DNA from: a virus
Virus record (IMG/VR): IMGVR_UViG_3300042988_000048
Location: 1 to 41,951 of that record
Reading direction: 5' to 3' (one strand)
Length of the DNA: 41,951 nt
Shown here in pieces: positions 9,881 to 29,467 of this stretch. A program made the position numbers and the translations under genes. The notes beneath the pieces were generated by a model. It worked only from the letters and a program-made list of their open reading frames with translations, ran no database searches and was not told the DNA's origin. Every line of letters starts with the position of its first letter. The stretch's first letter is position 1.

Positions 9881-10005
9881 AATGGTGATGGGTGGGTGGG
9901 AACTTCCACATTTTAATAAAATTAAATGAAATAGCTAGAGAGCATAATTTTTATGAGATAGTTTTACGGGTTCTTGCAACATAAAACCAACCCCCCTACC
10001 CCCTT
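9881..10005. other. G-tract clusters on opposite strands
   Basis: GGTGATGGGTGGGTGGG at about 9883-9899 is on the plus strand. About 100 bp away, C-runs at 9990-10004 give GGGGGTAGGGGGG on the minus strand. These runs stand out in an otherwise AT-rich region. Each has three or fewer clear G-triplets, so G-quadruplex formation is possible but not assured. They border the AT-rich block to the right. Confidence 0.35.
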
Positions 10006-10059
10006 AGTCGAATTGCCACATGAATACTTTTGTTTAAACTGTGAATGTGTACAGTAATA

Positions 10060-10250
10060 CATTAGTATTATATATATATATATTATATACTACTATATTA
10101 TTATATATACTACTATATAGTTATAATATTAAAGATATATATTAAGTATCTTAATACTATTATACTAATAATATGGGGCTAGTAATACTATTATATTATA
10201 ATATATATTAATAATACTTATATATGACATATAGTTATTGAGAATAGTTA
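10060..10250. other. Very AT-rich block, possible replication origin or strand-opening region
   Basis: About 190 bp of TATA/ATTA repeats with only scattered G or C bases, between the leftward late genes and the rightward early promoters. A short GGGGCTAG island interrupts it at about 10174. T7-like phages begin replication from AT-rich regions next to early promoters, so an origin is plausible. No DnaA boxes or regular iterons were recognised. Transcription starts could also lie here; the low complexity prevents calling individual promoters. Confidence 0.35.
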
Positions 10251-10275
10251 TCATTAACTAATGAATACTTAGGTG

Positions 10276-10285
10276 TTACTAGTAA
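10276..10285. repeat. TTACTAGTAA palindrome (non-coding copy 1)
   Basis: A perfect 10-bp palindrome in the divergent control region, just right of the AT-rich block and about 85 bp upstream of the first promoter-like unit. It belongs to a set of 16 exact copies found by eye in the window. Confidence 0.7.
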
Positions 10286-10368
10286 TGTTTTAGTGTTAAT
10301 ATACATACTAGGGTACGTAAGTATGCGGTTTTGTATACTTTTTTACTACGTACTAGCCTACGTGCAGC

Positions 10369-10402
10369 TGTAAGTTTGGTGTAAGAATAGTGTAGATAAT
10401 GG
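10369..10402 (+). promoter_or_regulatory. Promoter-like unit 1 of 5
   Basis: TGTAAGTTTGG, TGTAAGAATAG and TGTA follow at 11-bp steps, ending in the -10-like GATAAT at 10395-10400. The first TGTAAG begins exactly 26 nt before the -10 hexamer, as in the other four units. No TTGACA-like -35 box lies at 16-18 bp. Tandem 11-bp repeats overlapping the -35 region are typical of OmpR/PhoB-type activator sites, so an activator-dependent rightward promoter is inferred. Just downstream, GTGTTG and CAACAC form an inverted repeat with an 8-base loop. Confidence 0.6.
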
Positions 10403-10459
10403 ATGACATACACAGCAAGTGTTGCATGTAAACAACACATCGTAATCTTAGATTACTGG

Positions 10460-10493
10460 TGTAAGTTTCGTGTAAGCTTGGTGTGTACAATGC
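10460..10493 (+). promoter_or_regulatory. Promoter-like unit 2 of 5
   Basis: TGTAAGTTTCG and TGTAAGCTTGG are followed by a third TGTG step and the -10-like TACAAT at 10486-10491, again exactly 26 nt from the unit start. Immediately upstream is an inverted repeat, GTAATC (10442-10447) and GATTAC (10451-10456). Downstream is CACACAATGTGTG, a palindromic segment in the predicted start of the transcript. Confidence 0.6.
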
Positions 10494-10548
10494 AGGTCAT
10501 ACACACAATGTGTGCATGTATACACATATAGACAATGTGCTCTATCAC

Positions 10549-10582
10549 TGTAAGTTACATGTAAGAATTGTGTGTATAATGG
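10549..10582 (+). promoter_or_regulatory. Promoter-like unit 3 of 5 (perfect TATAAT)
   Basis: TGTAAGTTACA, TGTAAGAATTG, then TGTG and a consensus -10 TATAAT at 10575-10580, 26 nt from the unit start. This is the best -10 of the five. TTACATGTAA, a palindrome, spans the junction of the first two repeats. Confidence 0.65.
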
Positions 10583-10624
10583 AAAGCAAGCGAAGAGCTT
10601 ACATACAGTAACTAGGTTGCACAA

Positions 10625-10658
10625 TGTAAGTTTGACGTAAGGTTAGTGTGTAAAATGA
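10625..10658 (+). promoter_or_regulatory. Promoter-like unit 4 of 5
   Basis: TGTAAGTTTGA and CGTAAGGTTAG (one mismatch in the second core), then TGTG and the -10-like TAAAAT at 10651-10656, 26 nt from the unit start. Downstream, CAGTA-ATCG-TACTG and GAAC-AA-GTTC are inverted repeats in the predicted start of the transcript. Confidence 0.6.
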
Positions 10659-10714
10659 AGGGCATGCAGTAATCGTACTGTATGTGGACAGAACAAGTTC
10701 TTTGGCTTACAATC

Positions 10715-10748
10715 TGTAAGCTTCATGTAAGGTTGACATGTAAAATCA
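10715..10748 (+). promoter_or_regulatory. Promoter-like unit 5 of 5, nearest to the first gene
   Basis: TGTAAGCTTCA and TGTAAGGTTGA, then CATG and the -10-like TAAAAT at 10741-10746, 26 nt from the unit start. An extra reversed half-site precedes it, giving GCTTACA-ATC-TGTAAGC. Although TTGACA is present at 10733-10738, it is only 2 bp from the -10 and cannot be its -35 box. A transcript from here would have a leader of about 220 nt before the first early gene. Confidence 0.6.
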
Positions 10749-10761
10749 GCCACAACAGGGA

Positions 10762-10903
10762 ATACGTACCCCATATAAAACGTATAGGTAAGCTTTGACC
10801 ACGGCTAAGCAGAGTCCGTGCGAGTACCTTAGGCTCAAGATATTGGAAGATATCAGGTAAAACCCTAATGGCACAGGGGATATGTTACCAACCCGTAAGG
10901 GTT
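10762..10903 (+). ncRNA. Predicted structured leader RNA of the early operon
   Basis: Several helices can be drawn in order. ATACGT (10762-10767) pairs with ACGTAT (10780-10785). AGGTA (10786-10790) pairs with TACCT (10825-10829), enclosing CACGG (10800-10804) with CCGTG (10816-10820). GATAT (10839-10843) pairs with ATATC (10850-10854). GGTAA (10856-10860) pairs with TTACC (10885-10889), enclosing CCC/GGG. AACCC (10890-10894) pairs with GGGTT (10899-10903) around a GUAA tetraloop of the GNRA type. The density of helices in 140 non-coding bases suggests a folded RNA between the last promoter unit and the first gene. I do not recognise a known riboswitch or ribozyme class. Confidence 0.45.
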
Positions 10904-10913
10904 TCGTAATGTG

Positions 10914-10923
10914 TTACTAGTAA
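10914..10923. repeat. TTACTAGTAA palindrome (non-coding copy 2)
   Basis: Here the palindrome extends to 14 bp (TGTTACTAGTAACA). It lies in the untranslated leader about 50 bp before the first early gene and just after the folded leader segment. Confidence 0.7.
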
Positions 10924-10976
10924 CATAGAGCACATTATCAAGCCTAGTAAGTCACTTAACATGCAAAGGAAAAATC

Positions 10977-28782: not shown

Positions 28783-28965
28783 ATGCAAGCAACAGTTTAC
28801 ACAAAAGACAATTGTCCAGCATGTGTTGCATTGAAGGCTGAGTTTGATAAAACAGGCCAACAATATAACGAAGTGAAGATTGGTACAGATATCACTAGGG
28901 AAGACTTCATAGCTAAGTTTCCTTTGGTACGTTCTGTACCGCATGTTGTGTTTAATGCAGACTGA
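28783..28965 (+). CDS. Glutaredoxin/NrdH-like thiol reductant
   Basis: A 60-residue thioredoxin-fold protein with the CPAC active site (DNCPACVAL) and a C-terminal RSVPHVVF cis-proline region. It lies one base after ribonucleotide reductase, whose C-terminal cysteines it probably reduces. It is shorter than usual glutaredoxins (about 80), with the last helix trimmed. Its end overlaps the sigma factor start by 11 nt. Confidence 0.88.
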   Translation: MQATVYTKDNCPACVALKAEFDKTGQQYNEVKIGTDITREDFIAKFPLVRSVPHVVFNAD

Positions 28966-29467
28966 TGCGGAGCTAATTAAAGCCTCTATTGCAGGGGATG
29001 CGAAAGCCTCCTCTGCTTTAGTTGACAAATATAGACAGCGCATCTATCGGTTTATTTACAAACGAGTGCACAATTCTGCTATTGCGGAAGAACTAACTCA
29101 AGACGTATTCCTAGACGCATTCTTAAAGCTATCTTCTTTTAGGGGAGATAGTCAGCTATATACATGGCTATGTACGAATGCCCTTAGGAAGGTCTATAGG
29201 CAGCCTAGAAGGAGCTTAAAGACCGAGGTAGAACCCACCCTACATACTACCCCAGAAAGCCTCTTGATGACCAAACAAACATTCGATGAAGTAAGTAAAA
29301 CTTTAGATGGGCTACCCGCACCACAACGCAGTGCTTTGTTGCTACGTGAGTATGAGGACTTGGAATATCACGAAATTAGTGATATACTAGGATGCACACC
29401 AATGTATGCTAAGAAACTTGTGTGGAAAGCAAAGAAACAACTACGGAAGGAACACAATGACCAATGA
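28955..29467 (+). CDS. ECF-type RNA polymerase sigma factor
   Basis: A 170-residue protein with textbook sigma-70 family regions. Region 2 is LVDKYRQRIYRFIYKRVH then EELTQDVFLDAFLKLSSFRG and TWLCTNALRKVYR. Region 4 is LPAPQRSALLLREYEDLEYHEIS then LGCTPMYAKKLVWKAKKQLRK. There is no region 1 or 3, as in ECF sigma factors. The ATG at 28955 is preferred to 28943 but has a poor ribosome-binding site. Being late in the early operon and in a phage with no visible RNA polymerase, it probably redirects host polymerase to later genes. Its promoter is unknown. Confidence 0.92.
   Translation: MQTDAELIKASIAGDAKASSALVDKYRQRIYRFIYKRVHNSAIAEELTQDVFLDAFLKLSSFRGDSQLYTWLCTNALRKVYRQPRRSLKTEVEPTLHTTPESLLMTKQTFDEVSKTLDGLPAPQRSALLLREYEDLEYHEISDILGCTPMYAKKLVWKAKKQLRKEHNDQ

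Follow-up and report, generated by a model that had tools for sequence, protein, structure and literature searches.

Probable tandem early promoters with a TGTAAG direct repeat in the place of the -35 box in a Zobellviridae-like phage

Lytic phages usually start their early genes from strong σ70 promoters that need no additional factor. Promoters activated in the class II mode by regulators of the OmpR/PhoB family are characterized by an 11-bp direct repeat where the -35 box would otherwise stand. We know of no precedent for a host response regulator that governs the main early operon of a phage, and a literature search for response-regulator control of such an operon found no case.

Several described systems are nevertheless close to the locus reported here. 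Pho promoters have no canonical -35 box and PhoB recruits σ region 4 to them (PMC4496699). In E. coli phoA the arrangement is TGTCAT-n5-TGTCAC-n10-TATAGT, i.e. the -10 element starts at an offset of 27 nt from the beginning of the repeat. The site of WalR/VicR is TGTWAH-N5-TGTWAH (PMC4168254), and that of CiaR is TTTAAG-N5-TTTAAG, in which one TTTAAG can be replaced by TGTAAG with regulation retained (PMC9603419). Finally, some cyanophage genes, namely pstS of P-SSM2 and genes of S-PM2, are under the control of the host PhoBR system, and the cyanophage genes governed by a response regulator of the host include a DNA polymerase gene (PMC10976474).

The array described here lies in a 41,951-base stretch of DNA (the window) from a Zobellviridae-like phage. 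Like the Pho-box class II promoters of enterobacteria, its units contain two 11-bp direct half-sites that replace the -35 box, and a direct repeat with an 11-bp period, as in class II OmpR/PhoB promoters, is found in the 57 distinct units known from the window and its relatives. The offset of phoA, 27 nt, recurs in 30 of these units, and the other 27, including all five of the window, have an offset of 26 nt. In contrast to Pho promoters, the units form tandem arrays of two to five in the early region, and their half-site is TGTAAG-n-TT instead of TGTCA plus AT-rich sequence, so that they are not Pho boxes proper. The sites of WalR/VicR and CiaR are likewise direct repeats of the type hexamer-N5-hexamer with nearly the same hexamer as in the phage, but the G at its sixth position lies outside the H of the WalR/VicR consensus, and both are regulators of Bacillota, whereas the known hosts of the phage family are Proteobacteria. 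What the locus would share with the cyanophages is that a response regulator of the host controls phage genes; there, however, single phosphate-responsive genes are controlled, while here it is the promoters of the main early operon.

An array of five units before the early operon

When the whole window was scanned for TGTAAG-n5-TGTAAG with up to three mismatches, five units were found, all on the + strand within 10369-10746 (Table 1), and no further copies; the number expected from shuffled sequences is 0.03, and no shuffle reached five. The half-sites are 11 bp apart, successive unit starts are separated by 91, 89, 76 and 90 bp, and a -10-like hexamer begins exactly 26 nt after each unit start. 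No -35 box is present at 16-18 bp in any unit. The array is located before the early operon and is the only good promoter set there in the window's own group of phages. A weak σ70-like site, TGGACA-17-TACAAT (10 of 12), occurs at 10685, and additional promoters inside the neighboring AT-rich block are possible.

Table 1. Features of the window and their coordinates
Feature	Coordinates	Strand	Remarks
AT-rich block, 19% GC	10040-10340		between late and early arms; layout conserved; candidate origin
Promoter unit 1	10369-10400	+	TGTAAG-n5-TGTAAG; -10 GATAAT (10395-10400); conserved in relatives
Promoter unit 2	10460-10491	+	-10 TACAAT (10486-10491)
Promoter unit 3	10549-10580	+	-10 TATAAT (10575-10580)
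Promoter unit 4	10625-10656	+	second half-site CGTAAG; -10 TAAAAT (10651-10656)
Promoter unit 5	10715-10746	+	-10 TAAAAT (10741-10746)
Structured leader RNA	10747-10976	+	50 pairs, 27 changed on both sides; predicted to be carried by all early transcripts
First early gene, 169 aa	10977-11486	+	conserved in the clade downstream of array or σ70 promoters
Phage σ factor	28943-29467	+	Sigma70_r2 and r4_2; ECF-like; end of early operon

The initial annotation, made from the sequence of the window, had described these five units with their fixed 26-nt geometry and the lack of a -35 box at normal spacing; both statements hold, and the relatives agree on the latter. Its general formula, in which two TGTAAG half-sites are followed by TGTGTAnAAT, has to be corrected for unit 1, which ends with TGTAGATAAT. 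Inverted repeats had been noted behind at least units 1, 2 and 4 as well, and hairpin-forming sequences are indeed found within about 50 nt after units 1-4 (10395-10760), with z-scores of -1.6 to -2.9 relative to mononucleotide shuffles, which are a weak control; the same folding test found none after unit 5, and the tendency is less pronounced in the clade as a whole (mean z -0.97, again with mononucleotide shuffles). The suggestion that each unit produces a short RNA is not supported, as no terminator-like site was found on the + strand after any unit and the transcripts would enter the conserved leader.

Conservation of the array and exchange of the -35 box

Relatives were collected by means of gene 1, the first early gene, and its alignment, yielding 39 contigs, some of which are near-copies of each other. 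TGTAAG units, mostly two to five per contig, precede gene 1 in 24 of them. The 57 distinct units define the half-site consensus TGTAAGKTTSR, which occurs twice per unit. The TT at positions 8-9 lay outside the search pattern and is nevertheless kept at a level of 93-98%; only one position of the second half-site deviates, with T in 63% and A in the remainder. At the spacing of a -35 box, 36 of the 57 units match TTGACA at no more than one position, as compared to about 12% by chance. Of the 37 units that were examined first, 22 show a CA whose C is the seventh base behind the hexamer, the background being 8% for each position, and a CA 7-8 nt after the -10 element fits the expected start site. 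The array was not found in the cultured Zobellviridae ICP2, MEP401 and ICBM2 or in a contig from Manatee Spring, and a collection of phages contained no close relatives of the window.

Six sister contigs (L140-L145) have kept gene 1 and related early genes, most of them also the leader, and contain no TGTAAG units; at the place of the array they carry ordinary σ70 promoters of the type TTGACA/T-17 bp-TAnnnT. One promoter slot can be recognized in both groups from the -10 element onward by the sequence TACATT-n5-CATCGGTTC or near variants, which is letter-identical between L141 and seven array contigs. Upstream of it, four contigs (L140-L142 and L145) have TTGACT at 17 bp, and 12 (L153, L156-L160, L162-L164, L166, L169 and L172) have the TGTAAG pair at a distance of 27 nt. 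As this homologous slot is shared from the -10 element on and differs upstream, the most economical interpretation is that the TGTAAG pair functionally substitutes for the -35 box.

Two hybrids (L160 and L164) carry in tandem a TGTAAG unit, TTGACA-17-TAATAT and a second TGTAAG unit, and in close kin of these the middle slot is weakened to TTGCAA. In a tree of gene 1, the deep branches of which are weakly supported, the canonical group is placed among some of the array phages and three changes are needed. Thus, since the array-bearing phages are not a single group on this tree, the promoter design probably switched between the TGTAAG and the σ70 form during the history of the clade. The natural series of canonical, hybrid and fully swapped promoters constitutes a ready test system for the exchange of a -35 box for a class II site.

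The sequences directly show the units with their geometry and conservation and, at one homologous promoter, the TGTAAG pair exchanged for the -35 box. With the array conserved upstream of gene 1 in 24 contigs of relatives, the pair in the -35 place and a CA at the expected start, the OmpR/PhoB-type, activator-dependent appearance proposed in the initial annotation is corroborated. The same annotation had regarded relatives with the same early genes and no array as evidence against its interpretation. L140-L145 are such relatives, but the σ70 promoters at the place of their missing array confirm the promoter function of this region rather than refute it.

Leader RNA, phage genome and other conserved elements

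Behind the array follows a structured leader RNA, supported by RNAalifold and pair counting. In the alignment 91.8% of the cells are paired and 27 of the 50 pairs are changed on both sides. The covariation score is 0.44. Shuffles, which ignore relatedness, give 0.20, and none of 500 came up to the observed value; sliding gives 0.06-0.13, a control that leans towards the structure because the latter was derived from the same alignment; the number of double changes is large despite these limits. Neither the region nor its relatives match Rfam at gathering scores, and matches under permissive settings were chance-like and rejected. The leader is found behind both TGTAAG and σ70 promoters; five contigs (L146, L162, L165, L167 and L170) apparently carry a different one. 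As to its role, one may guess at antitermination in the long early operon or at a protected 5' end. The conserved leader RNA represents a second, separate novelty. An AlphaFold model of the first early protein was of low confidence (pLDDT 61) and was set aside.

The genome is organized in two divergent arms. The late arm on the minus strand encodes portal, terminase large subunit (TerL) and tail fibres, and the early arm on the plus strand a CobT/CobS-like pair, dCMP deaminase, primase, DnaB, PolA, a Cas4-type exonuclease, thymidylate synthase, MazG, ribonucleotide reductase and the σ factor. TerL is 57% identical to that of the uncultured contig from Manatee Spring, 56% to that of Methylophilales phage MEP401/402, 52% to that of cobavirus ICBM2 and 50% to that of ICP2; the portal reaches 47-50% with its nearest records, and for both proteins the nearest records are mostly Zobellviridae. 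The genome has the homologous TerL, portal and PolA and the divergent gene order of this family, to which its nearest cultured relatives belong, and is syntenic with ICP2. The early regions of Zobellviridae (ICP2, MEP401 and the cobaviruses) share this divergent plan and homologous replication genes, but are devoid of a TGTAAG array, and ICP2 is annotated with σ70 promoters. Capsid and scaffold genes, which in relatives lie between portal and a 529-aa late gene, are absent from the window (ends 1 and 41951), i.e. the window is an incomplete genome.

The σ factor is kept across the clade, including phages without the array; its absence in the array-less G014 is only apparent, as this contig ends exactly there. 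It was not detected in MEP401 and ICBM2. The factor probably serves the late genes, and inspection of the gaps in the late operon revealed no common late-promoter motif.

Upstream of the array, at 9885-10340, the AT-rich block adjoins a conserved G-run block on the minus strand (AAGGGGGGTAGGGGGGTTGGTTTTATATTGCA in relatives), and this AT-rich/G-run region is a candidate origin, G-quadruplex or late promoter region. In addition, the palindrome TTACTAGTAA (often GTTACTAGTAAC) occurs 16 times in the window as compared to 0.16 expected copies, e.g. at 10276, 10914, 11509, 13825, 20053, 27289 and 40781. Fifteen of the 16 copies are located in the early arm and the divergent region, also inside genes. 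Each clade member examined, with or without TGTAAG units, has 5-22 copies, and none was found in ICP2, MEP401 and ICBM2. Judged by its distribution, the palindrome resembles a site at which a DNA-binding protein acts throughout the clade.

Candidate readers of the array

Based on these findings we propose that the array consists of early promoters in tandem, which are recognized by the RNA polymerase of the host carrying the housekeeping σ factor. Each promoter would have a normal -10 element and start site, and a pair of 11-bp half-sites in the -35 place. This pair is most likely bound by a dimeric winged-helix response regulator of the OmpR/PhoB family. The bound regulator would then recruit σ region 4 in the way known for PhoB at Pho boxes, and would most probably be the host's own. 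We consider this explanation as a whole, i.e. tandem early promoters, an activator of the OmpR/PhoB family and its supply by the host, to be fairly probable, with the start sites, the family of the activator and its origin inferred from the patterns described above.

Among the possible readers, a response regulator of the host is the strongest candidate because the phage has no such protein, no gene tracks the array and the window has no other good promoter. The OmpR-type domain Trans_reg_C was not found in seven clade contigs, six of them with the array, while control genomes matched. Likewise, a comparison of gene content yielded no sense-strand gene family that six or more of the seven array genomes share and all four others lack, a test which small, fast-evolving phage activators could escape. 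Moreover, as the array is the only good early promoter set, its reader should pre-exist any phage product.

Bacterial genomes contain similar elements. Among about 85,000 species there are 89 perfect cases of the two half-sites followed by TATAAT, 79 with a gap of 10 and 10 with a gap of 9; they are mostly intergenic, 40-120 nt before a gene, often one for an ABC transporter ATPase. In 369 genomes of one class of Proteobacteria the pattern was matched 15 times, always with gap 10, as compared to two matches for the reversed pattern, and a scan of Alphaproteobacteria gave three matches versus one in the control. Gap 9 is near chance level in bacterial TGTAAG promoters, and the offset of 26 nt in the window is one bp shorter than that of PhoB and of nearly all of these promoters. 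From their sequences, bacterial TGTAAG pairs seem to work as response-regulator promoters. Clostridia and Paenibacillus, which provided the main matches of the genome-wide scan, are implausible as hosts for this phage family. In L203, L204, L205, L030 and others of L026-L113, TGTAAG-n5-TGTAAG-n10-TAnnnT lies 40-120 nt before genes; the boxed genes (in Clostridia, Paenibacillus and some Proteobacteria) encode ABC ATPases, a large MalT-like protein and, by eye, an FHA-like protein. These boxes perhaps form an uncharacterized response-regulator regulon.

Alternatively, an early activator encoded by the phage could bind the TGTAAG pairs and amplify early transcription, the array then being of a positive-feedback or middle type as for λ CII or T4 MotA. 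Direct-repeat activators do exist in phages (λ CII), many small early proteins of this phage belong to no family, and the ordinary σ70 promoter kept in the hybrid phages could start such a circuit. In the window's own group, however, no good ordinary promoter feeds the operon, leaving nothing obvious to start it, and the failure to find an OmpR-type domain or a gene family confined to array genomes also argues against this alternative, which we regard as unlikely, albeit worth considering. That the repeats are repressor sites or replication iterons with incidental -10-like sequences is very improbable: they do adjoin an AT-rich, origin-like divergent block, but the -10 element, its spacing and the CA are conserved, the units fill the slot of an ordinary promoter in sister phages with only the -35 box replaced, and a repressor would not require the loss of this box. 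Least probable, with hardly any weight, is that the array is read by the phage σ factor, for although ECF-like phage σ factors can read promoters without classical -35 boxes and one is encoded in the same operon, its gene is kept in phages without the array (G676, G685 and G687) and lies at the distal end of the very operon whose transcription would have to begin at the array, and the -10 element is of the host type.

If an OmpR/PhoB-family regulator of the host indeed reads the array, the entire takeover programme of the phage may depend on a regulator made by the host. We suggest tentatively, and with less than even confidence, that the exchange of -35 boxes for regulator boxes has brought the whole early transcription under the control of one host two-component system, that infection proceeds, or proceeds fast, only when this regulator is active, and that sister lineages differ in this respect without a matching change in gene content. 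Phage takeover would thus be tied to host signalling, and a host sensor would be a determinant of infection.
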